NCBI GenBank assembly: GCA_017624715.1
Contig: JAGAMN010000012.1
Location: forward strand, 1 to 32,163
Source: Oscillospiraceae bacterium
Lineage (GTDB): Bacteria; Bacillota; Clostridia; Oscillospirales; Oscillospiraceae
DNA: 32,163 nt
Reading direction: 5' to 3'
Shown here: positions 637-11,563 of the stretch, one piece after another
How positions within the stretch are numbered: position 1 is the first letter of the stretch
Layout of the letters: the number at the start of each line of letters is the position of its first letter
Translations under genes and position numbers: made by a program
The notes under the pieces: generated by a model
What the model saw: the letters and a program-made list of their open reading frames with translations, nothing else
Database searches by the model: none
What the model was told of the DNA's origin: nothing

Positions 637-1734
637 TTATACATTGAACAGAAAGTTGACGATGTCGCCATCCTTCATTACATATTCCTTGCCTTCGCTG
701 CGAACCTTGCCCTGGGACTTGGCGTTGGCCATAGTGCCGCAATCCTTCATGTCCTCAAAAGCAATCACCTCTGCCCGGATGAAGCCGCGCTCAAAGTCCG
801 TGTGGATCTTGCCGGCGGCCTGAGGAGCCTTGGTGCCCTTCTTGATGGTCCAGGCGCGGCACTCGTCTGCGCCTGCAGTGAGGAAGGAAATCAGGCCCAG
901 CAGGGCATAGGAGCTGCGGATCAGCCGGTCCAGACCGGATTCAGCAACGCCCAACTCTTCCATAAACATGGCCTTTTCGTCGGGATCATCCAGCTCGGCA
1001 ATGTCAGCCTCCAGCTTGGCACAGATCGGCAGCAGCTGGCTGCCTTCGGCATCGGCCAGAGCCTTCACTGCCATGAAATGACGGTTGCTTTCGGGCTCGT
1101 TGATTTCGCTTTCGGCCAGGTTTGCCACGTAAATGGTCTTCTTTAGGGTCAGCAGATCGGAAGTGCCGATCAGCGCCAGATCCTCGGCATCATCGGTGTA
1201 AGTCCGGGCTAGCTTGCCTTCGTTCAGATGCTGCAGCAATCCGGTGAACAACTCCACCTCCCGGGCAAACTTCTTGTCGCCGCCCTTCATAGCCTTCTGT
1301 GCCTTATCGATACGCCGCTCCACCATTTCGATGTCGGCCATCACCAGCTCCAGGTTGATGATGTCAATATCCCGGAGGGGATCGGTTGAACCCTCAACGT
1401 GGGTCACGTTGGAATCTTCGAAGCACCGCACAACATGCACGATGGCATCGGTGGTGCGGATGTTGCTCAGGAACTTGTTGCCCAGGCCTTCGCCCTTGGA
1501 CGCACCCTTGACAAGACCTGCGATGTCCACGAATTCGATGACAGCGGGGGTGGTCTTCTTGGGCTGGTAGAAATCACTCAGCCAGTTCAGCCGCTCGTCG
1601 GGCACGCTGACCACACCTACGTTGGGGTCAATGGTGCAGAATGCGTAGTTGTCTGCCGGCACACCGGCGTTGGTAATGGCATTAAACAGAGTGGACTTGC
1701 CAACATTGGGCAGTCCCACGATACCTAATTTCAT
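637..1734 (-). CDS. ychF: Ribosome-binding ATPase YchF (Obg/OLA1-like P-loop protein)
   Basis: Universal P-loop NTPase of the Obg/TRAFAC group that prefers ATP, binds ribosomes and acts in translation and stress responses. The 365-aa length is normal. The Walker A (GLPNVGKST) lies within the first 20 residues, followed by the DIAGLVKGASKGEGLGNKFL switch region, a coiled helical insert (MVERRIDKAQKAMK), and a C-terminal TGS domain ending in the family-typical DGDIVNFLFNV. I chose ATG 1734 (MKLGIVGLPNVG) because the family starts there and GAAGGAG sits 9-14 nt upstream; the longer reading from 1785 adds an unrelated extension that comes from the island junction. The island is inserted within about 100 bp upstream, so the native promoter may have been displaced. 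Confidence 0.95.
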   Translation of the reverse strand: MKLGIVGLPNVGKSTLFNAITNAGVPADNYAFCTIDPNVGVVSVPDERLNWLSDFYQPKKTTPAVIEFVDIAGLVKGASKGEGLGNKFLSNIRTTDAIVHVVRCFEDSNVTHVEGSTDPLRDIDIINLELVMADIEMVERRIDKAQKAMKGGDKKFAREVELFTGLLQHLNEGKLARTYTDDAEDLALIGTSDLLTLKKTIYVANLAESEINEPESNRHFMAVKALADAEGSQLLPICAKLEADIAELDDPDEKAMFMEELGVAESGLDRLIRSSYALLGLISFLTAGADECRAWTIKKGTKAPQAAGKIHTDFERGFIRAEVIAFEDMKDCGTMANAKSQGKVRSEGKEYVMKDGDIVNFLFNV

Positions 1735-1799
1735 TTTTGTTTCTTCTCCTTCAAAAAATCCTTTATTTGCAAGGGTTTTCGGCATTTGGCACTTTTGGG

Positions 1800-1822
1800 T
1801 TTACGCCATTTTTACGCCATTT
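1800..1822 (+). repeat. Left-end direct repeats (two TTTACGCCATTT copies)
   Basis: TTTACGCCATTT occurs at 1800-1811 and 1811-1822, 22-45 bp past the int1 stop codon. Short tandem direct repeats next to an outward-pointing tyrosine integrase are typical arm-type binding sites of Tn916/lambda-like integrases. The shared ACGCCA core also occurs three times at the right end in the same absolute orientation. Confidence 0.5.
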
Positions 1823-1844
1823 TGCTATGGAATAGCATAGACTT

Positions 1845-3029
1845 TTATGCCGATACCCCATTTTTCTCAAATTGCTTCACAGCTTGATCCATAGCTTCGT
1901 CCGTTACGTGAACGTACCGATCCATGGTGGTTTGGATGCTGGCGTGACCCAGCAATTTTTGCAGCACCTTCGGCTGCATTCCGCTTTCGATGGCACGGGT
2001 CGCATAGGTGTGACGGAGCGCGTGCATACAAAAACGTTCGATTCCTGCTTCGTCGCAGAGCTTGTACAGATGGGCATCATAAGAGCTGTTTTTCGCCGGT
2101 GCTCCGGTGCGATAGTTGATAAAGACAAGATCACGCATGACGAGTTTGGACGTGTGTCCTGTACGACGGTCCATATATTCCAAGACTTCTGATAGAATAG
2201 GGGACTCCTTACGACCCTCACGGCTCTCCCAGACGCTTTTGAGAATTTCGTAAGCCCTGTCCGTTAACGGAATGGTTCGATAACTCTGAGGCGTCTTAGG
2301 CGGTCCTGCACGCCAGGTCTGGCTTTTGTACCGAAACTCCAAGGTCTTGTTTACGGTCAGGGTGCGTTTCTCAAAATCAATCGCGTCCCAGGTCAGACCG
2401 ATCAATTCGTCGGTGCGAAGTCCGGTCTCAAGAATCAGCGCATACTGGTTGTAGTTGTGCGAACGTTTTGCTTGCTCAAGGAAGAGCCGTTGCTCGTCCC
2501 GTGTCAGAAATTTGATATCATCCTTTGCACGGACGGGCTTTGTGTAGCGAACGCCGTCCATGGGGTGCTTTCTGATCAAGTCATTCATTTTTGCTGCCTT
2601 GAACATGGTACCCATGGTGATGTAAGTTTGACGGATGGTAGAGCCCGCATAATCGGCATCCATCAGGATGAATACCTTTTTGCAGTGCATTGGTTTTACA
2701 TTGGACAGATACATCATTCCGATAACAGGTTGGATGTTTCGAATGTATCGTTCCCGGTAATTGCGAATCGTGTTGGGAGCTAAGTTGCCAACAATATTCT
2801 CAATCCAAAATTCGAACCATTCGTCAACGGTGGTTTCGGTCGCTATAAAGACTTCTTCGTGCTTGTCCGCGTATTTCGCGTCCTCCATCCAGTTGCGTGC
2901 TTCCGGAAGCGTTTGGAAATATTTTTCGTGTCGCTTTCCTGCTTTATCAATATACCTTGCGCTGTATCGACCATCCTTTCTTTGGTAGATACCCTTACCA
3001 CATTCTTTGCCTTTGAGATTCTTTCCCAT
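1845..3029 (-). CDS. Tyrosine recombinase/integrase of the left module (int1)
   Basis: Site-specific recombinase expected to integrate and, with Xis, excise the island. 394 aa. The N-terminal part (about 1-65, [20 protein letters not shown]) fits a Tn916-type arm-binding domain. A SAM-like core-binding domain follows (about 65-175, [15 protein letters not shown]). The catalytic domain has Arg in [12 protein letters not shown], a basic [13 protein letters not shown] strand, [24 protein letters not shown] and the nucleophilic Tyr. All expected catalytic positions look present, so it is probably active. ATG 3029 is chosen because GGAAAGGAG lies 8 nt upstream; the reading from 3065 adds residues with no SD. 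It lies downstream of xis1 in the same direction. The SD is immediately preceded by a 21-bp inverted repeat (3048-3109). Confidence 0.93.
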
Positions 3030-3047
3030 AGATGAACTCCTTTCCGC

Positions 3048-3109
3048 CTTGACGAAAAAGAGCACACTGCTACACTATAATAATAACACAGTGCGCCCTT
3101 TTTCTCAAG
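3048..3109 (-). promoter_or_regulatory. int1 leader: promoter inside a 21-bp inverted repeat abutting the SD
   Basis: Arms 3109-3089 and 3069-3048 can pair as RNA over 21 base pairs with two G-U wobbles and one bulged G, around a 19-nt loop; the 3' arm ends 2 nt before the int1 SD. A promoter reads TTGAGA (3108-3103, in the 5' arm), 17 bp, TATTAT (3085-3080), predicting a start near 3073 inside the loop. The native transcript would therefore lack the 5' arm, and only read-through RNA would form the hairpin. Confidence 0.55.
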
Positions 3110-3472: not shown

Positions 3473-3746
3473 TGTTAATAATATATGAGAGTTAAAATCG
3501 CGTTTCAAGAAAATATCATTTTTCTCAGAAAAAATAATTTTTGTATAGGTTTTTGTATCAAAAAAGAGGGTAGAGCATATGTTGATTTCTTAGTGGCTCC
3601 ACTTTTTGGAGGGAAAAAGTGTTGGGAATACAGGGAAAATGCGCTGTTATTTTTGCAGGTTGAGATAATGGACGAATGCGTTTTTTGGGGTAAAAATCGC
3701 CCCATAAGTCCATATAAATCCATGTAAATGGCATATAATTTGGACC
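3473..3746. other. AT-rich spacer with no supported gene
   Basis: Between the xis1 leader and the tRNA-like fragment I see only AT-rich sequence. An 80-codon plus-strand reading at 3485-3727 has no SD and no recognisable domain. The 477-bp gap between xis1 and the upstream regulator otherwise holds the tRNA-like fragment and the regulator's terminator. Confidence 0.4.
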
Positions 3747-3780
3747 CTACAACTGTTAATCGAATTGTCGTTGGTTCAAT
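3747..3780 (+). other. tRNA-Asn-like fragment (anticodon arm to T arm), possible attachment-site remnant
   Basis: AACTGTTAATCGAATTGTCG followed by TTGGTTCAA reads like the anticodon arm (CTGTTAA loop, anticodon GTT), variable loop and start of the T arm of a bacterial tRNA-Asn(GUU). No acceptor stem, D arm or 3' half of the T arm is found, so it is not a functional tRNA. Partial tRNA copies inside mobile elements usually come from past integration into tRNA genes. Confidence 0.35.
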
Positions 3781-3788
3781 AATAATAA

Positions 3789-3820
3789 AAGGACGATGGC
3801 TGATTTTAGTCACCGTCCTT
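3789..3820 (-). terminator. Terminator of the left XRE regulator
   Basis: AAGGACG / CGTCCTT (3789-3795 and 3814-3820), extended by partly paired TG/CA, form a stem followed on the minus strand by TTTTATTATT. It lies 15 nt beyond the regulator's stop codon. Confidence 0.7.
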
Positions 3821-3834
3821 AATTTTGTTTGTGT

Positions 3835-4146
3835 TTACTTCTTGATTAATCCTTTTACGAGATTGGCGATGCTTTCAAGTTGTTGGTCATCCAGCTTTTT
3901 AAGATCGCTGATGATGCCGTTGAGCTTGGTAGGATTTTTGGTATCAAGATCGAAGAACTCACTTACCGAAACACCTAAGTAATCGCATATATAGAAAATA
4001 CCCATCAAGGAGGGCAATGATTTTCCCGACTCAATGTTATTGATGTAACCGGGATTCTGACCAATAGCCAAACTCATTTCTCGTGCGGATACATTTTCCT
4101 TTTCACGCAGTTGCGCGAACCGCAAAGCAAAATCCTTTTCGTCCAT
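3835..4146 (-). CDS. XRE-family HTH transcriptional regulator (left module)
   Basis: 103 aa. The N-terminal lambda-repressor-type HTH spans about residues 5-62 (FAQLREKENVSAREMSLAIG, then QNPGYINNIESGKSLPSLMG and YLGVSVSEFF), followed by a short acidic/lysine-rich tail. Such proteins usually repress int/xis or cargo promoters of integrative elements. ATG 4146 has AAAGGCGGTGAG upstream; the longer 146-codon reading has no SD. It is transcribed with xis1 and int1 on the minus strand but ends in its own terminator. It is divergent from the truncated SLOG-like gene, with a shared 235-bp control region holding the plus-strand promoter at 4219-4247. The target operator is unknown. Confidence 0.88.
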   Translation of the reverse strand: MDEKDFALRFAQLREKENVSAREMSLAIGQNPGYINNIESGKSLPSLMGIFYICDYLGVSVSEFFDLDTKNPTKLNGIISDLKKLDDQQLESIANLVKGLIKK

Positions 4147-4218
4147 AATCTCACCGCCTTTTATAATATTGTACCCCATAAAGATTATAATACTATTGGT
4201 TGTCAGGCGGTAAAGGTG

Positions 4219-4247
4219 TTGCAATATTGGCTTATATATGATACAAT
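4219..4247 (+). promoter_or_regulatory. Promoter for the SLOG-like gene transcript
   Basis: TTGCAA (4219-4224), a 17-bp spacer and TACAAT (4242-4247). Transcription would start near 4254, giving a leader of about 125 nt before the next gene, with a terminator hairpin inside it (4334-4367). Confidence 0.6.
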
Positions 4248-4333
4248 GGAGAAAATGCAGGAAATCAACCCACAAACAATTCTAAATGACCGCTATACAC
4301 ACGCATGATGAGATAGCTGAGTCATTGGAATAG

Positions 4334-4367
4334 CCCACCGGACTAAAACGGTTCGGTGGGTGTTTTA
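4334..4367 (+). terminator. Terminator-like hairpin just upstream of the SLOG-like gene (attenuator?)
   Basis: CCCACCG / CGGTGGG (4334-4340 and 4354-4360, 13-nt loop) followed by TGTTTTA. It ends 4 nt before the SD of the gene at 4382, so transcription from the 4219 promoter must read through it. This layout fits an attenuator or riboregulator better than a gene-end terminator. Confidence 0.55.
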
Positions 4368-4381
4368 ATAAGGAGCGAGAT

Positions 4382-4732
4382 ATGAGGACTTATTCTGTGG
4401 CATTTTTTGGTCACCGGTACGTGGATAATATCATAAAGGTAGGGAACCTTCTGGAAGAGCAAATACGGAAACTTATTGACGAAAATGAGTATGTAGATTT
4501 TTTGGTGGGACGGAACGGGGCCTTCGATCAATGCGTATCTTCCTCGGTACTTCGTGTACGAAAAAACTATCGGGACGATAACAGTGCTCTTGTTTTGGTG
4601 TTGCCGTATCCTATAGCTGAGTACCTTAATAACGAAAATTACTTTCTCGACTTTATGGCAAACCGTTTGGATATGATGATGGATGAGCAGAAACCCAAGA
4701 AAAAAGGTGGATTTCCTAAAAGTTTTATGTAA
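4382..4732 (+). CDS. SLOG-like (DUF1273/YspA-type) protein, apparently C-terminally truncated
   Basis: 116 aa. It begins MRTYSVAFFGHRYVDN, the SLOG-family nucleotide-binding entry strand with GHR, and continues through EYVDFLVGRNGAFDQCVSS and NSALVLVLPYPIAEYLNNE, which match the first two thirds of small SLOG proteins seen in Firmicute mobile elements. Relatives I know are about 170 aa and continue with a second conserved block. Here, after residue 88, the protein ends in an unrelated lysine-rich tail (QKPKKKGGFPKSFM). That suggests a deletion or fusion at about 4645. SLOG proteins sense or process nucleotide-derived ligands; no specific role can be given here. The SD AAGGAGCGAG is good. No operon partner is evident. 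Confidence 0.7.
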   Translation: MRTYSVAFFGHRYVDNIIKVGNLLEEQIRKLIDENEYVDFLVGRNGAFDQCVSSSVLRVRKNYRDDNSALVLVLPYPIAEYLNNENYFLDFMANRLDMMMDEQKPKKKGGFPKSFM

Positions 4733-4769
4733 CTTTTGTGTTAAAAATAATTTGACATTTGAAAACATA

Positions 4770-4798
4770 TTGCAAATACAGTCGAATTATGCCATAAT
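4770..4798 (+). promoter_or_regulatory. Likely promoter of the small ORF and export cassette
   Basis: TTGCAA (4770-4775), a 17-bp spacer and CATAAT (4793-4798). This is the best promoter upstream of the cassette beginning at 5136; TTGACA at 4752-4757 has no good partner. The leader would be about 330 nt. Confidence 0.55.
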
Positions 4799-4832
4799 AT
4801 AATATGAAAAGTTATAAACAGAGGTTGACAAA

Positions 4833-5003
4833 ATGAATTCTTCGCGTATAATTCTTAAAAGCCAAGGTAGGGGCAACTCTGCCTATTTTGTCGTACCTTT
4901 TATGCGGATGAATAACGGCGTATTGCGCCCACCTCTTAATAGCGGGCGATATGCGCCGTTTTGTTATCGCATGGCTGTGAATGAAGGAGGGAGGCCACCG
5001 TGA
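4833..5003 (+). CDS. Small arginine-rich ORF of unknown function (56 aa)
   Basis: Open reading frame starting MNSSRIILKSQGRGNSAY and ending AVNEGGRPP. It is basic, proline- and arginine-rich, with no signal peptide or TM. The SD is weak (GAGG, 8 nt upstream). It lies about 30 nt after the promoter at 4770-4798 and upstream of the export cassette. A strong hairpin (4914-4960) sits inside it, so the region may be a structured leader RNA rather than, or as well as, a gene. I do not recognise the family. Confidence 0.4.
   Translation: MNSSRIILKSQGRGNSAYFVVPFMRMNNGVLRPPLNSGRYAPFCYRMAVNEGGRPP
4914..4962 (+). terminator. Terminator-like hairpin in the leader of the export cassette
   Basis: Two 17-nt arms (4914-4930 and 4944-4960) pair with three imperfect positions, the outer seven bases (AACGGCG/CGCCGTT) being perfect, and are followed by TTTTGTT. 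It lies between the promoter at 4770 and the first cassette gene at 5136, where it could attenuate transcription. Confidence 0.45.
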
Positions 5004-5135
5004 TAACAACATGATTTTAACGTCACATTGATTCAAGCATGAACATTGTAAGAGTTGATGTTGTCGGAAAAATAAAGCGATGCATAGCATCAAAATTCCC
5101 CAAAATACAAAAAACACGTAAAGGAGTAAAACACA

Positions 5136-5636
5136 ATGAAAAACAGAAAAAGAGTAGTAGTGGCATTCCTGTTGGTTGCAGTAATGCTGATGAGCGTAGG
5201 TTATGCAGCACTGACCGATGTGCTGGATATCACAGGTAGTGCCGACGTTAACAAGTCTGCCGCTGAAGATGCTTACAATGAGGATATCCATTTTAGCAAT
5301 GCCGTGGCAAATCAGACAGGTAATACTGCTTCTGTTAATACCGACAATAATGACAAGGCATCCTTTACCGCAAATACCCTGCAGGGTGCCGGAGATACCG
5401 CTACCTTCACTTTCACAATTCAGAATGATGGTGACTTGGAAGCAACCGTCACGCCTTCTATCAGCAGTAACACAAACGAAGCGTACTTCACAATCTCCAG
5501 CGACTGGGCCGGACAGGCAAAAACTCTTGCTGCTGGTCAAAGCTTGACCTATACGGTCACTGTAATGCTGAAGGAGACTCCTACCGATACCATTAGTGGC
5601 TCCTTCATCATTGAGCTGACTGCGGTTGCAGGATAA
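5136..5636 (+). CDS. TasA/CalY-like secreted protein with SipW-type signal peptide
   Basis: 166 aa. It has a signal peptide with KNRKR n-region, hydrophobic core (about 8-21) and a VGYA cleavage site directly before ALTDVLDITGSADV, the pattern of SipW-dependent substrates. The mature part (about 142 aa) is Thr/Ser/Asp-rich with beta-strand texture (DTATFTFTIQNDGDLEATVT, SLTYTVTVMLKE), as in TasA/camelysin biofilm-fibre proteins. It is followed after 48 bp by the SipW-like peptidase, the usual pairing. The SD (AAAGGAG) is exposed, with no pairing partner seen nearby, unlike the next gene. The likely role is an extracellular fibre or matrix subunit. There is no LPXTG or TM anchor. Mature size is smaller than B. 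subtilis TasA, so polymerisation is inference. Confidence 0.8.
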   Translation: MKNRKRVVVAFLLVAVMLMSVGYAALTDVLDITGSADVNKSAAEDAYNEDIHFSNAVANQTGNTASVNTDNNDKASFTANTLQGAGDTATFTFTIQNDGDLEATVTPSISSNTNEAYFTISSDWAGQAKTLAAGQSLTYTVTVMLKETPTDTISGSFIIELTAVAG

Positions 5637-5669
5637 GGCTTGTGCCATAAGCGTGAATGAATAACATGG

Positions 5670-5742
5670 AAAGGAGGACGGCAAATGTCCGACAAACGAA
5701 TTTTACATATTTTTTCTGCATCGGTTTTTGCCGTCCTCCTTT
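5670..5742 (+). promoter_or_regulatory. 16-bp perfect stem locking the SD and start of the SipW-like gene
   Basis: AAAGGAGGACGGCAAA (5670-5685) and TTTGCCGTCCTCCTTT (5727-5742) are perfectly complementary, with a 41-nt loop. The 5' arm contains the whole SD and the A of the ATG at 5685. The 3' arm is coding sequence for the first TM helix and is followed by further T residues, so a premature terminator is also conceivable. Both readings predict low sipW-like expression relative to the upstream gene. Confidence 0.75.
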
Positions 5743-6818
5743 TTGCACTTTTCGTTCCTTTTGGTTTCAGCGGGAGAATTGCGGCGGCAATACTGTTGTT
5801 ACCTTTGGCGGTGCTTATGCCCCTATTTGTAAAGAAGAGAGATATTTTGAGTATCAATAAGGGGCAGGTACTTCTCATTCTGACTGTTATAGCCCTTGTG
5901 TACGTAATGGGTTATTACCTCTCGGGCATACCTTTCGGCTTTTACAAAAATCCCTATCAGCTGACTGTATCGAACTTTTTTAAATTCTTTCTGCCAATTT
6001 CGGCTGTCATCTTATTTACGGAAATTATTCGCTCCGTGACAGTTGCACAGCGGGACAGGCTATCCAACATACTATGCTGGTGTTCCTGCATAATAGCGGA
6101 TATGCTGATTTGCTCCAACTTACCTTCCGTTACGTCCTTTAATAGATTTATGGATTTGGCGGCGGGTGCATTTTTGCCAGCAGTACTATCGAACTGTTTG
6201 TATCACTACTTATCCAAGCGGTACGGCATATATCCTAATTTGGCTTATCGCTTGATTACTACGCTTCATGCATATTTATTGCCCATCTCACCGTGTATCT
6301 CAGATTCCTTGCTGAACCTGTTTCGGATATTGATTCCGATTGCTATTTATTTCTTTATCGACGCTTTGTTTGAGAAAAAACGCCGTTATGCGCTAAAAAA
6401 AACAAAGCGTTCTGCACGAATCATTTCAATTATACTTACTATTTTAGTCCTTGTTATAATGATCGGTACGGTTATGATTGTTTCCAATCAATTTCGTTAC
6501 GGTGCCTATGTTATTGCCACGGAATCTATGACCGGGGAACTAAACAAGGGCGATGTTGCCATCTGCGAACGGTACGAGGATCAAACTGTTCAGGAAGGAC
6601 AAGTTATTGTTTTTGAAAAAAACGGCTCTGTGGTTATTCACAGAGTCCTGGATATAAAAATCATCGATGGAATTACACGCTATTATACCAAGGGCGATGC
6701 CAACGAAGATCCGGATTCTGGTTTTGTTACCGAATCGCAGATTATTGGAATCGTTGGCTATAAATTGCCATATGTAGGTTATCCAACCCTTTGGATGAGA
6801 AGTTTATTTGACCGTTGA
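5685..6818 (+). CDS. SipW-type (ER-type) signal peptidase I with multi-TM N-terminal extension
   Basis: 377 aa, about twice a normal SipW. Residues 1-230 contain about six or seven hydrophobic segments (about 7-28, 32-50, 61-80, 98-116, 128-145, 155-172, 210-228) with no recognised domain. A further TM helix lies at about 246-266. The peptidase domain begins RYGAYVIATESMTGEL (Ser281), then SVVIHRVLDI (His319) and TKGDANEDPD (Asp338-344), then IIGIVGYKLPYVGYP. His in place of Lys marks the ER/archaeal type used by SipW. It should cleave the two cassette proteins carrying VGYA-ALTD sites, with the active site outside the membrane. The start is fixed by GAAAGGAGGACGGCAAATG. The SD is sequestered in a 16-bp stem. 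Function as peptidase is well supported; the role of the extension is unknown. Confidence 0.88.
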   Translation: MSDKRILHIFSASVFAVLLFALFVPFGFSGRIAAAILLLPLAVLMPLFVKKRDILSINKGQVLLILTVIALVYVMGYYLSGIPFGFYKNPYQLTVSNFFKFFLPISAVILFTEIIRSVTVAQRDRLSNILCWCSCIIADMLICSNLPSVTSFNRFMDLAAGAFLPAVLSNCLYHYLSKRYGIYPNLAYRLITTLHAYLLPISPCISDSLLNLFRILIPIAIYFFIDALFEKKRRYALKKTKRSARIISIILTILVLVIMIGTVMIVSNQFRYGAYVIATESMTGELNKGDVAICERYEDQTVQEGQVIVFEKNGSVVIHRVLDIKIIDGITRYYTKGDANEDPDSGFVTESQIIGIVGYKLPYVGYPTLWMRSLFDR

Positions 6819-6833
6819 TAGAGGGAGAGAATT

Positions 6834-7973
6834 ATGTCAGAAAGAGAAATATTAAACCGACAGCAATATAAGAAAAATCGCAAAAAATGGATTCTCATTC
6901 AAGCTGTTGCCCTTATAGTGGTTGCAGTAATTGCATTAGGGTGCTTCTTAACATACAATCGCCTTGACCGTACTTACTATATTGAGTATACCGAGAGCAG
7001 CGAGATAGATTATAAGGTCGTTTATCAGGAGAATGAGTATTTTGACGACCTCGTCAGAGGAGAGGACCAAACCTATATTGCACATTTGATTGATCATATC
7101 ATGGCTGATTTCCAATATCAAATGGGTATGGATGCATCAGATGTGTCTCTTGATTATAGTTACAGCATTATGGCACAGGTTGTTGTAGAAGATAAAGATA
7201 CAGGAAAGCCTTATTATACTGTTGAAGAAGCGTTGCTGCCTTGTACGCAAAAAGCAATTGCAAACAGTAATGAGGTCGAAATTCAGGAGCAGGTCACGAT
7301 TGATTTTCCAAAATTCAATCAATTCGCATCAGATTTTATGACCGCATATGATTTAAAAAATGCTACGGCAACATTGATTATCACGATGAAGGTGCAGATG
7401 CTGAGTACCTGCGATCAATTTGAGAAGTGCAATGAGAATACATATTTTACCGATGTTCGTGTTCCTTTGAACGAGTTGACTATGGATATCAACTGCACGA
7501 CAAGTGCGCCTGAAACGGAAAGCAAGGTCCTTGCATACCAGAATACTATGAATCAGAAGGTGTTCCTGATTATCGGATATGTGACTGCTGTGCTCGCACT
7601 ATTGCAGGCACTTGGACTGACAATTTATATGCGCTTGTCGCGCAACGAGGACGTTACCTACACCGTTAAGGTGCAGAGAATGCTGAATTCTTACAGTTCC
7701 TATATTCAGCGCATCGAAGGAGATTTCAACGACGAGGGCTATCAAATCATCAATATAAAGAGTTTTAACGAGTTGTTAGGCATAAGAGATACGCTCCAGG
7801 CACCTATTTTGATGACCGAAAACAGAGATCAGACGATGTCCCGCTTCTTAATTCCTACAGATTCTAAGATGCTCTATGCATTTGAAATCAAAGTGGATAA
7901 TTACGATGAACTTTACGCTCACGAGGAACGCTCAGCTCATAAGGCTGATTCTTCCGAATTCGTACTAAAGTAA
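6834..7973 (+). CDS. DUF5305-like membrane protein of the export cassette
   Basis: 379 aa. TM helix 1 spans about 18-41 (WILIQAVALIVVAVIALGCF), a large extracytoplasmic domain about 42-243 starts with the YYIEYTESSEIDYKVVYQEN strand pattern I associate with DUF5305, TM helix 2 lies at about 242-266, and a cytoplasmic domain with YTVKVQRMLNSYSSYIQRIE follows. DUF5305 proteins are typically encoded beside SipW-like peptidases and TasA-like proteins, as here, and may help assembly or anchoring of exported subunits; that role is inference. It starts 15 bp after the peptidase with SD GAGGGAG, so it is co-transcribed. No SD-sequestering stem was found for it. Family call is moderate; topology is clear. 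Confidence 0.7.
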   Translation: MSEREILNRQQYKKNRKKWILIQAVALIVVAVIALGCFLTYNRLDRTYYIEYTESSEIDYKVVYQENEYFDDLVRGEDQTYIAHLIDHIMADFQYQMGMDASDVSLDYSYSIMAQVVVEDKDTGKPYYTVEEALLPCTQKAIANSNEVEIQEQVTIDFPKFNQFASDFMTAYDLKNATATLIITMKVQMLSTCDQFEKCNENTYFTDVRVPLNELTMDINCTTSAPETESKVLAYQNTMNQKVFLIIGYVTAVLALLQALGLTIYMRLSRNEDVTYTVKVQRMLNSYSSYIQRIEGDFNDEGYQIINIKSFNELLGIRDTLQAPILMTENRDQTMSRFLIPTDSKMLYAFEIKVDNYDELYAHEERSAHKADSSEFVLK

Positions 7974-7991
7974 TACTGTAAGCAATACAGA

Positions 7992-8052
7992 GAAAGGAGA
8001 GTGCATATGAAAACGTGGATGAAAATTTTAGGCGGCTGTGTACTCTCTTTTT
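7992..8052 (+). promoter_or_regulatory. SD-sequestering stem of the second secreted-protein gene
   Basis: AAAGGAGAGTGCA (7993-8005) can pair with TGTACTCTCTTTT (8039-8051) over 13 bp with two G-U wobbles, extendable by one more wobble, around a 33-nt loop that holds the ATG at 8007. The SD (AAAGGAG) is in the 5' arm and the 3' arm is signal-peptide-coding sequence, the same design as at 5670-5742. Confidence 0.5.
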
Positions 8053-9089
8053 CGTTTTTGTTTATGACTGTAGGTTATGCAGCTCTGACAGACACACTGA
8101 ACATATCCGGCTTTGCCGAGGTAGAATTTAATCCTTTGTTTACGGTTACCTATATGGTTGGTGATGAGGTGTATTTAGTGGATTATCACACCGATCCAAC
8201 GATTGACTATACTGTAATAGGGTCACCGAATGGGGAGGCTGATTTTAAACAATGGATCAATGCTAACGGTGTTGCTGTAACAACGATTCCGAGAAATAAC
8301 ACGAACGATTATACCCTTTATGCTTCTTGGTATAATAAATATACGATCAATTTTATTGATACAGACGGTAGTTTGATCTACAGCGAAGAATTTACCGAGG
8401 GGGCTTCTTCTATCTCCGGCGAAGGCCAAGCAATTGTAGATCAATGGTTGAAGAATGAAAACCAAGTTGAAAATAGAAATCATATTTACGTAACGTGGTC
8501 TAATTATGACATGAAAGGTGCTACTGCGGATATTCTTGTTCGTCCCGAGTATGACTATCAAGGTTATTTAAACCTGGAGCCTGTTTACGAGCAACCTGAT
8601 GACGGTGTCGTAGATTACTATAGAGTTGTAGCAATAGACACTTTACCTGCTGAAGTCACGGTTCCCGGCAATGTGGGCGGTGTTCCCGTGCGGGTTATAT
8701 ATAGAATAACCAACGAAGACGGTGAGAGCGATTGGGATAACTATGAGAATACTGTTACTAAGATCACGATTGAAGAAAATGTAGAGCGTCTGGAATGGAA
8801 TTCACTCGCATGGACGCCTAATTTGGCAGAAGTGCACTTGCCTAATTCTCTTCTGTATATGGATAAAAATGTATTCTCTCGTAACGACTTGTTTGGCAAT
8901 GACAAGAAGAAACTAACTATTAATTTCAACGGGACAATGCAAGAATGGAAGGATGTAGTGGCAAATAGCAACGATGATTGGGATGGCGGTTTAAAGGAAG
9001 GCACCTTCATTAACTGTTCCGATGGCTACTTCAAGCTAGAGAAGAAAAATTTCTTAGGTTCCCTTGAGTGGAAAGAATATCCTGATTAA
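8007..9089 (+). CDS. Secreted protein with SipW-type signal peptide, InlB-B-like and BspA-like parts
   Basis: 360 aa. The signal peptide core (about 8-20) ends VGYA, followed by ALTDTLNISGFAEV, nearly the same as in the TasA-like protein, so both are probable substrates of the SipW-like peptidase. Residues about 50-130 resemble InlB B/Flg_new repeats (YTLYASWYNKYTINFIDTDG). Residues about 235-300 resemble a BspA-type leucine-rich repeat (ITIEENVERLEWNSLAWTPN, LAEVHLPNSLLYMDKNVFS). This composition points to a surface adhesin or fibre-tip protein; that is inference. It has no sortase motif or C-terminal TM. I chose ATG 8007 over the in-frame GTG at 8001 because AAAGGAG is 8 nt upstream of ATG. 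It is the last gene of the cassette, and terminators follow. Confidence 0.8.
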   Translation: MKTWMKILGGCVLSFSFLFMTVGYAALTDTLNISGFAEVEFNPLFTVTYMVGDEVYLVDYHTDPTIDYTVIGSPNGEADFKQWINANGVAVTTIPRNNTNDYTLYASWYNKYTINFIDTDGSLIYSEEFTEGASSISGEGQAIVDQWLKNENQVENRNHIYVTWSNYDMKGATADILVRPEYDYQGYLNLEPVYEQPDDGVVDYYRVVAIDTLPAEVTVPGNVGGVPVRVIYRITNEDGESDWDNYENTVTKITIEENVERLEWNSLAWTPNLAEVHLPNSLLYMDKNVFSRNDLFGNDKKKLTINFNGTMQEWKDVVANSNDDWDGGLKEGTFINCSDGYFKLEKKNFLGSLEWKEYPD

Positions 9090-9100
9090 GCAATGAGTAT

Positions 9101-9124
9101 GGGGCGCAGACTTTTCTGCGCCCC
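9101..9124 (+). terminator. GC-rich hairpin after the cassette
   Basis: GGGGCGCAG / CTGCGCCCC (9101-9109 and 9116-9124), a perfect 9-bp stem 11 nt after the last cassette gene. No T tract follows, so it may stabilise the 3' end or act with the next hairpin. Confidence 0.6.
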
Positions 9125-10324: not shown

Positions 10325-11563
10325 ATGAGTACAAAGAAAGGTAGAAGATTAGATAAAGACAGGGTTACCCTTCGCAAAGGAGAATCCCAAAGAGCTGACG
10401 GTATATATGATTACCGTTGGAGTACACCGGACGGCAAACGTCATGCTATTTACGCAAGTACGCTTGAGGAACTTCGTGAAAAAGAAGAGTAGATCATAAT
10501 TGATAAGCGAGATGGCATAAAAACCGAGATTCGTTATGTTACGGTCAATGATGTGTTTGAATTGTGGTGTGATCTGAAAAGGGGACTGAAGGACAACACT
10601 TTTCAGAATTACAAATATATGTACAATATGTTTGTACGCCCCACATTTGGCAAACTTCGTATTGCTTCAGTCAAAAAGTCTGATGTGAAACGCTTTTACA
10701 ACAGAATGGCTGACGAAAAAATATTGAAAATTGCCACCATTGACAATGTGCATACGGTTCTGCATCAGGTCATTAATTTGGCGGTGGATGATGGATATAT
10801 CCGAATCAATCCCACCGACAATATGCTGAAGGAACTGAAACAGTCGCACAATTTTGAGGTCGAAAAGCGGAAAGCACTTACCGTTGCCGAGCAAAAGCTG
10901 TTTATTGATTTTATCAAGAATCACCCAAAATATAATCATTGGTATCCCGTATTTGCTGTTATGCTTGGAACGGGTATGCGTGTAGGCGAGGTCGTGGGAC
11001 TTCGTTGGTGCGACATTGATTTAGATGAAGGAATTATTGACGTAAATCATACTTTGGTGTATTATAATCACGGGGGTAATAATGGCTGTTCCTTTAGCGT
11101 GAATACGCCGAAAACAAAAGCCGGTGAACGCACAATCCCGATGCTTGATGATGTTAAGAAAGCTTTTCTTATGGAGAAGGAAAATCAGGAGATATCCGGG
11201 GTTAAGTGTAAGGCGATTGTTGACTGCTACACCGATTTTATTTTCGTTAATAGATACGGTGATGTGCAGCATCAAGGAACGCTCAACAAGGCGATACGCC
11301 GTATTATCCGTGATTGTAATGATGAGGTTCTGCTGAAAGGTGAAGAAAATCCTGTATTGCTTCCGCCCTTTAGTTGCCACAGCTTGCGGCATACCTTTAC
11401 GACAAGACTTTGTGAGTCGGGTATCAATGTAAAGGTAATTCAGAATGTTTTAGGACACGCGGACATAAGCACGACGATGGACATCTATTGCGACGTGACC
11501 AAGGATCTGAAACAAAGAGAGTTTACAAGCCTGGCCGAATTCTTCAAGGATAAGCAAATTTAA
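10325..11563 (+). pseudogene. Tyrosine integrase of the right module, interrupted by an in-frame TAG
   Basis: One continuous frame runs from ATG 10325 (SD GAAAGGAG, 10 nt upstream) to TAA 11563 except for TAG at 10490-10492 (codon 56, context EKEE-stop-IIIDKRDG, most simply CAG to TAG). The arm-binding domain MSTKKGRRLDKDRVTLRKGE, including DYRWSTPDGKRHAIYASTLE, is thereby split from the core. The catalytic part (from the in-frame GTG at 10553, 336 aa) is intact: GTGMRVGEVVGLRW, TPKTKAGERTIPM, HSLRHTFTTR, LGHADISTTMDIY. A core lacking the arm domain would probably not integrate normally. Suppression, readthrough or internal restart are possible but unsupported. It lies just downstream of the broken xis, supporting decay of the whole module. 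Confidence 0.85.

Follow-up and report, generated by a model that had tools for sequence, protein, structure and literature searches.

We analysed 32,163 nucleotides of an Oscillospiraceae bacterium (contig JAGAMN010000012.1, positions 1 to 32,163; hereafter the window) and followed up a preliminary description, made from the sequence alone, that had claimed a SipW/TasA-like export unit of four consecutive genes carried on an island. Four consecutive open reading frames (ORFs) were confirmed on the + strand at the places claimed, the last of them running over 8001-9089. They are referred to here as g1 to g4, and together as the cassette, which we discuss as a putative surface-fibre system. For g4, the ATG at 8007 suited the ribosome site and the starts of relatives better than the GTG at 8001.

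5136..5636, + strand: g1, presumed major exported subunit, 166 amino acids (aa); signal peptide, then mature ALTDVLDITG...
5685..6818, + strand: g2, 377 aa; N-terminal part of ~240 residues with multiple transmembrane (TM) segments and a C-terminal SipW/Sec11-type signal peptidase
6834..7973, + strand: g3, 379 aa; DUF5305 protein by PF17231 match, alignment and hydropathy
8007..9089, + strand: g4, second exported protein; 362 aa if counted from the GTG at 8001

Relatives were collected by a pattern scan of genome contigs covering 84,980 species, which gave 61 loci from 59 genomes. Two assemblies held two cassette loci each (L062 with L067, and L045 with L077), and eight loci from an earlier search lay on contigs already among the 61 and were counted once. 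All 61 loci were titled Clostridia, Oscillospiraceae or Eubacteriales, and 43 of the 61 titles named a section of the gut in deer, sheep, goat, yak or cattle. All four genes were present in the order g1-g2-g3-g4 in 52/61 loci, so their grouping is more than chance, and the cassette behaves as the self-contained unit that had been proposed. Among the other loci, L030, L031, L035, L074 and L079 were incomplete where contig ends cut the cassette, L077 and L081 had no g4 although the sequence continued, L062 had a g4-like gene inverted and upstream of g1 (3478-4884), and neither g1 nor g2 was seen in L078. Within the order, g3 was found in 9/394 genomes, and the eight besides the source genome all belonged to one other family.

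Export machinery

Profile searches bore out the SipW-type peptidase proposed for the second ORF. The C-terminal part of g2 matched TIGR02228 (sigpep_I_arch) at 81.6 bits, against a cut-off of 51.85, and a g2 profile searched against the Protein Data Bank (PDB) found the signal peptidase complex subunits SEC11C (E 1.4e-15) and SEC11A (E 6.9e-14). Signal peptidases of the endoplasmic reticulum (ER) type have His in place of Lys. Residues S281, H319 and D338 were invariant across nine aligned g2 proteins, and a strict catalytic pattern was present in 48/54 g2 (window included), the remaining six having the Ser-Met, His-Arg and Lys-Gly-Asp on reading. Against the Bacillus SipW equivalog NF046067, g2 reached 56.1 bits, below the cut-off of 190. 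By hydropathy, its first 240 residues form a series of hydrophobic segments. A second SipW-like protein of the source genome, on contig C26, has only 177 aa. Locus L022 (G000 C26:24306-33711) is a more conventional SipW locus with several GGTxAYF-type exported proteins, and also encodes a protein of 1636 aa whose start resembles a signal peptide.

The DUF5305-like membrane protein was likewise recovered by profile, with g3 matching PF17231 at 37.1 bits (cut-off 29). Its predicted topology comprises a first TM segment near residues 20-38, an outside domain, a second TM segment near 239-268 and a cytosolic domain. The C-terminal tail that many relatives have is missing from the window g3, a short form, and the tail motif was found in only 35/60 complete g3. 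We dropped the idea that the window g3 is a truncation, as 13 other complete g3 were shorter than 400 aa (some of their starts being perhaps misplaced). A cross-domain link between SipW and DUF5305 was not shown here: the neighbours of two haloarchaeal plasmid peptidases include SipW-type substrates, and 0/8 proteins scanned there matched DUF5305. In a literature largely without subscription papers, we found no paper naming DUF5305, none pairing SipW with DUF5305 or with Oscillospir, and, by title, none on such a system for SipW together with recombination, filament and horizontal gene transfer.

Common leaders, g4 architecture and the divergence of mature g1 and g4

The window g1 and g4 have VGYA-ALTDxLxIxGxAxV in common, with 13/18 residues alike by eye and 70% DNA identity over 64 nt at the leader and N-terminus, which upholds the near-equal cleavage context noted before. 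Cleavage would occur after VGYA. Given the leaders in common and the conserved catalytic Ser, His and Asp, one peptidase likely serves both substrates, as had been suggested. Across loci, the mature N-termini of g1 and g4 were mostly hydrophobic at positions 3, 7, 9 and 13 and mostly Gly at position 11, and over the first 14 mature residues g1 and g4 agreed at 7.33 positions within a locus versus 5.51 between loci (n = 49 of 53, four not being placeable; 0/9999 permutations). In the available parts of two studies, the N-terminal donor strand of a TasA subunit enters the next subunit of the fibre, and the N-terminus of TapA, which is thought to start fibres, resembles that donor strand (PMC9674648, PMC10151520). 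The N-terminal likeness of g4 (ALTDTLNISGFAEV) to g1 (ALTDVLDITGSADV) is TapA-like, and the first strand of both proteins may act as a donor strand. The SipW-cognate signal-peptide model TIGR04088 was listed at E 1 for neither exported protein of the window, and was found in 1/58 g1 rows with a best E of 0.0016 (the window row there being without its leader). No scanned g1 or g4 had the sortase signal LPxT[GA] within its 60 C-terminal residues.

In relatives, g4 usually consists of a leader, a g1-like domain and a variable C-terminal region. The g1 profile covered at least 60 positions, leader included, in 54/56 g4 at E < 0.01 (the window's being among the 56), and its match extended to at least position 100 in 48/56. 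The two exceptions were L037 (E 0.12; start poorly placed) and the window g4, which matched only profile positions 14-42, that is, the end of the leader and the first strand, and which had no g1-profile match at all once these were removed. With hhalign, g1 versus g4 reached 98.2% with leaders (8 g4) and 87.0% over 64 columns without leader and first strand, where both controls, the g3 outside region and the g4 C-termini, gave 0.1%. These comparisons support, if more weakly, a putative g1-like domain in the g4 of relatives.

The window g4 seems to combine parts of different affinity. Its first 39 residues were closest to L052 (26/39, rank 1 of 54), with L071 at rank 43 (15/39), and the mature window g1 was 80% identical to that of L052. 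Its remaining 321 residues were 53.7% identical to L071 and weakly similar to L083 (22%, E 2e-5), and beyond these two, none of the 55 other g4 matched this C-terminal region better than E 0.7. In L071, a g1-like domain lies between the leader and the shared region (its leader-free match alone being weak, E 0.38), and the window g4 has no counterpart to that intervening stretch. On these alignments, the window g4 looks like a mosaic in which a local leader and donor-strand-like start are joined to a C-terminal region shared with the distant L071. The InlB-B-like and leucine-rich-repeat-like parts earlier attributed to this protein stayed under the cut-offs (LRR_5 17.8 bits versus 27.7; List_Bact_rpt 14.1 versus 20.95).

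Three side observations concern g4 elsewhere. The g4 of L047 (4591-6507) has four Listeria-Bacteroides repeats after its g1-like region, at 230.9 bits and over the cut-off. Tandem second g4-like genes occur in L043 (8705-10891) and L083 (8714-10640). In L021 (6765-8020), a fragment from the 3' portion of g3 follows g4, and next comes a g4-like segment that has no normal leader, a layout that an incomplete exchange might leave.

Mature g1 and g4 appear to be replaced while g2 and g3, here called the chassis, stay. Among the 1378 pairs formed by 53 complete sets (the window plus 52 loci), g2 and g3 identities had a Spearman correlation of 0.51, while g1 correlated weakly with g2 (0.16) and at 0.01 with g3; a partial Mantel test of g1 and g4 given g2 and g3 yielded 0.376 (0/999 permutations). 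Nucleotide identity per gene was compared in seven locus pairs. The clearest case is L068/L069, from two genomes, in which identity was 97.6% in g2 and 97.5% in g3 versus 50.8% in mature g1 and 52.5% in mature g4, with leaders at 86.7% (g1) and 96.0% (g4) and flanks at 88.8% over 125 bases upstream and 86.7% over 460 bases downstream. The sliding profile of this pair has two abrupt drops, from ~97-99 to ~50-55% over a few hundred nucleotides, and rises again downstream of g4. Lower identity in g1 was also found in L060/L061 (g1 53.0% versus g2 80.6, g3 78.9 and g4 70.6%) and L048/L054 (g1 44.7% versus g2 61.5, g3 70.0 and g4 71.8%), and in both g1 and g4 in L041/L043 (46.6 and 45.4% versus g2 62.7 and g3 76.3%) and L036/L040 (64.3 and 55.8% versus g2 70.0 and g3 67.9%). 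The pair L039/L041 was alike throughout.

Two clades that were well supported in the chassis tree, chosen after both trees had been seen, were rejected by g1 data in approximately unbiased (AU) tests: a 15-row clade (p-AU 1.7e-4) and the 5-row clade of the window (p-AU 5.7e-84). An AU test of pairs, run on 8 hand-picked rows, was superseded by these whole-clade tests. A g1 profile search of 34 of the 59 genomes, a set apart from the two-locus genomes, found one full-length g1 in each, which points to other strains as the g1 source. A silent store of g1 copies was not supported in these 34 genomes. Extra g1/g4-profile matches away from the cassette occurred in G431 (C41, C32), G457 (C55) and G458 (C4), and in each of these genomes an additional open frame resembling g4 lies on a contig other than that of the cassette. 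These frames are possibly orphan g4-like genes or allele donors, and a g4 store, or exchange between cassettes in the two-locus genomes (L062+L067; L045+L077), is also possible.

Island context and neighbouring features

The cassette lies in AT-rich DNA with an integrase gene at each end, and its surroundings hold the following features.

637-1785: ychF, its 5' end adjoining integrase B
1845..3065, - strand: tyrosine integrase B, left end of the AT-rich stretch; PF00589 105.5 bits
4825..4852, + strand: promoter-like site TTGACA-16-TATAAT; 12/12 consensus, best match of the scanned stretch
4858..5135, + strand: untranslated leader upstream of g1, 278 nt, strongly folding
9101..9124, + strand: G+C-rich hairpin 3' of g4, read directly from the sequence
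10325..11563, + strand: tyrosine integrase A, right end; PF00589 98.8 bits on 10553-11560

G+C content was 0.37-0.43 over ~2.5 to 11.5 kb, 0.44-0.54 to 15 kb and 0.50-0.59 further right, and g3 had no match in any of the 36 genomes of the same genus that were searched whole. Given the AT-rich DNA between two integrase genes and the absence from 36 congeners, carriage of the cassette as island cargo is supported in the source genome. In the g2+g3 tree, the window grouped within a set of 5 rows from other Clostridia loci (99 in the Shimodaira-Hasegawa-like approximate likelihood ratio test, SH-aLRT), which fits horizontal gain. Integrase A has an in-frame stop codon at 10490-10492, read from the sequence, that splits its N-terminal from its catalytic part. 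Related integrases also lie at the ychF 5' end in the congeners G019 and G001 (L128, L135). In this genus, the ychF 5' end appears to be a hot spot for integration (window 1719-1845; L128, L135, L129, L130), and fragments of it are also found on contigs C54 and C42 of the source genome.

No second copy of window 1715-1850 was found elsewhere in the window as an att-type direct repeat. An empty site was not demonstrable in G429, G032, G028 and G016, the four congeners where both island sides were placed, given that the genes right of 11743 and ychF lie on separate contigs there. The source genome bin has two ychF genes that are 84% identical (C66, which is window 637-1785, and C67:14156-15297), so the bin may mix close strains or the duplication may be real; both window flanks match same-genus genomes despite possible bin mixing. 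Scans for g3 in viral contigs and for cassette DNA in a phage collection gave no match. Plasmid carriage was considered and rejected: the 13 plasmid records matched by g2 cover only 24-27% of it, inside the peptidase part. In the cassette-less congener G429, a membrane protein and a regulator lie beside ychF (L118 2584-5207), and the start of this regulator resembles, by eye, that of the cassette-adjoining regulator in L014.

In the relatives, integrase-like genes were near 3/61 loci (by a profile built from the two window integrases only). Their flanks varied, and the cassette is at no single fixed core position, nor usually beside an integrase. Apart from a two-component pair, each flanking family (ORFs of at least 120 aa) occurred in at most 9/61 loci. 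The response-regulator family flanked 14/61 loci and the kinase family 13/61, counts that are lower bounds given that many loci have short flanks, and the regulator was directly upstream in 10/38 loci with at least 3.5 kb visible upstream.

Promoter-like sites numbered 24 in the scanned stretch, compared with a mean of 14.0 in shuffles. The RNA of the g1 5' leader folded at -88 kcal/mol (z -4.49), with 0/200 shuffles equally stable. It matched no Rfam family and no plasmid or phage, a 20-base piece of it had no exact match in viral contigs, and a search of 119 genomes gave two short matches beyond its own copy. The hairpin at 9101..9124, which has no T run and is absent from the terminator scan listing, would mark the end of the four-gene unit.

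A putative fibre cassette, its rivals and known systems

We interpret the cassette, with a probability of roughly 57%, as a SipW-dependent surface-fibre system with exchangeable subunits, perhaps built by donor-strand exchange. In this model, g1 and g4 would exit via Sec, and the g2 peptidase, of ER/archaeal type and fused to a multi-pass membrane domain, would cut both after VGYA and free near-identical strands at their N-termini (ALTDxLxIxGxAxV). Each subunit would use this strand to complete the beta-sandwich of its neighbour, giving a g1 shaft polymer, with g4 as a minor subunit at the end (as initiator, anchor or tip) that presents a variable domain, and with g3 as a membrane partner whose outside and cytosolic domains perhaps provide an assembly or anchoring platform. 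Recombination would replace mature g1 and g4 in several lineages, with leaders and most of the chassis kept, and thereby change the fibre type, while the window copy would have been gained on an island. More tentatively, and with the balance tilting slightly the other way, conserved leader and donor-strand sequences may serve as recombination arms, such that shaft and tip alleles are swapped on a kept chassis and, in the window, a foreign tip was grafted onto the resident strand. The exchange of fibre or adhesin type that the preliminary description had envisaged finds support, and seems mainly to be allele replacement inside a resident cassette. Its adhesive tip on a shaft fits the relatives, whose g4 usually has a g1-like domain, but fits the window less well, where g4 has none; this g4 would donate a strand without offering an acceptor domain, and so may end or start a fibre.

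Several observations weigh against the fibre interpretation. The TasA/camelysin family PF12389 gave no match in the window g1 at E 1 and did not appear in the family listing of 58 g1 proteins at E 0.01, and the g1 family profile found no TasA entry in the PDB. With hhalign, g1 reached 68.7% against seven Clostridial TasA-type proteins, a weak match over 41 columns only (two non-sandwich control sets gave 1.9% and 7.1%), and 0.6% against one single TasA-type protein. With its leader and first strand removed, g4 matched the g1 profile at E < 0.01 in 13/56 cases and at E < 1 in 42. Regarding exchange, g4 identity followed g2 (0.395) nearly as closely as g1 (0.407), with g3 at 0.17, and the L069 allele lies on a 5.2-kb contig. 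In L076/L083, g1 (45.1%), g4 (44.0%), the g4 leader (100%) and g3 (92.7%) were accompanied by a differing g2 (58.8%), so the chassis can vary as well. The pairs L068+L069 (p-AU 0.762) and L060+L061 (0.352) were not rejected on g1 data, so fast divergence is possible there. Joint inheritance of g1 and g4 might account for part of the strand agreement within loci, and the sequences of the relatives come from draft assemblies, almost all with titles naming them as metagenome-assembled.

The TasA/CalY-like label that the first ORF had received was thus not borne out by sequence, and g1 appears to be TasA-like in setting only, while g2 and g3 can be filed in their families. The weak matches of g1 were largely to Ig-like families (DUF7507 at 27.2 bits, cut-off 27, for the mature window protein), and PF12389 matches in the source genome occurred only at C26. 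The single TasA-type protein used above matches PDB chains 8aur and 5of1 (E 0.003), the former of which we take to be the TasA fibre. In the available part of PMC9674648, 5OF2, which is listed together with 5of1, is the TasA monomer. It is possible, if on the whole doubtful, that g1 is a true TasA/camelysin member diverged past sequence methods: it occurs together with SipW, its GDxxxFTIxNxG resembles by eye the TasA-type PGDxxxxxFTIxNxG, and the 41-column hhalign match points the same way, whereas the PF12389 result for the 58 g1 proteins and the Ig-like matches point elsewhere.

Decay of the window copy seems unlikely. The window g4 could be a non-functional deletion remnant on an island copy that is being lost, given that its g1-profile match is the shortest of 56 g4 (14-42; the next, L083, reaches 61) and that a stop codon interrupts the right-end integrase. 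However, no stop codon breaks the g4 ORF, the local cassette type is matched by its leader and strand, its C-terminal region is conserved at 53.7% identity to L071, and tapA1-57 gave proper biofilms in B. subtilis, according to the available part of PMC10151520.

We consider it a shade less likely still that the cassette is a SipW-type export unit whose dedicated peptidase serves two secreted, non-polymerising proteins, either monomeric surface proteins or adhesins. While g1 matches no known fibre subunit, neither exported protein has an LPXTG signal in its last 60 residues and the window g4 has no detected g1-like domain, the g1-like domain in the g4 of relatives and the shared alternating hydrophobic strand after the cut site, with its agreement within loci, suit co-polymerising subunits, and both SipW systems compared here make fibres, as far as the available parts of PMC9674648 and PMC7395162 describe them. 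Least probable of the four is that mature g1 and g4 diverged by fast diversifying selection under phage or host immune pressure, with no allele exchange. Although L068+L069 and L060+L061 are not rejected as pairs on g1 data, three observations speak against it: the steep identity drops in the sliding profile with the rise downstream of g4, the rejection of whole chassis clades in the g1 tests, and the only close match to the C-terminal region of the window g4, among 55 other g4, which sits on the distant chassis of L071.

If the fibre interpretation is true, gut Clostridia have a surface-fibre system that is compact and swappable, rests on the SipW/TasA principle and follows a logic like that by which Gram-negative bacteria exchange pilin and adhesin alleles. 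DUF5305 would gain a testable role, and the window would offer a natural experiment on the minimal minor subunit, a leader and a donor strand, for displaying a foreign domain on a fibre. In chaperone-usher systems, an adhesin of the FimH type is a minor end subunit that combines a pilin-like with a receptor-binding domain. The layout proposed for the g4 of relatives is similar in arrangement, but the cassette has no chaperone or usher gene and belongs to a Gram-positive lineage.

Closer parallels exist among other donor-strand and SipW systems. Archaeal threads are donor-strand-linked fibres of Saci_0406 with a cap candidate, Saci_0405, that has no acceptor site, and the window g4 would likewise be a second protein without an acceptor, a likeness of description; the available part of PMC9715654 describes no SipW/DUF5305 cassette for Saci_0406/Saci_0405. 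The sipW-bsaABCRSD locus of C. perfringens combines a SipW-dependent polymer-forming protein with other secreted proteins and a two-component system, according to the available part of PMC7395162. A two-component pair also adjoins the cassettes of some relatives (regulator in 14/61), whereas gene order and content differ, and no DUF5305 gene is named in that part of the source. The tapA-sipW-tasA operon of B. subtilis is similar to the cassette in that a SipW-type peptidase lies beside a major and a minor exported substrate, as the available parts of PMC9674648 and PMC10151520 describe. In contrast to that system, g1 is not TasA by sequence, the g2 peptidase is fused to a multi-TM domain, a DUF5305 gene is present, g4 usually seems to pair a g1-like domain with a variable C-terminal region, and alleles appear to be exchanged.

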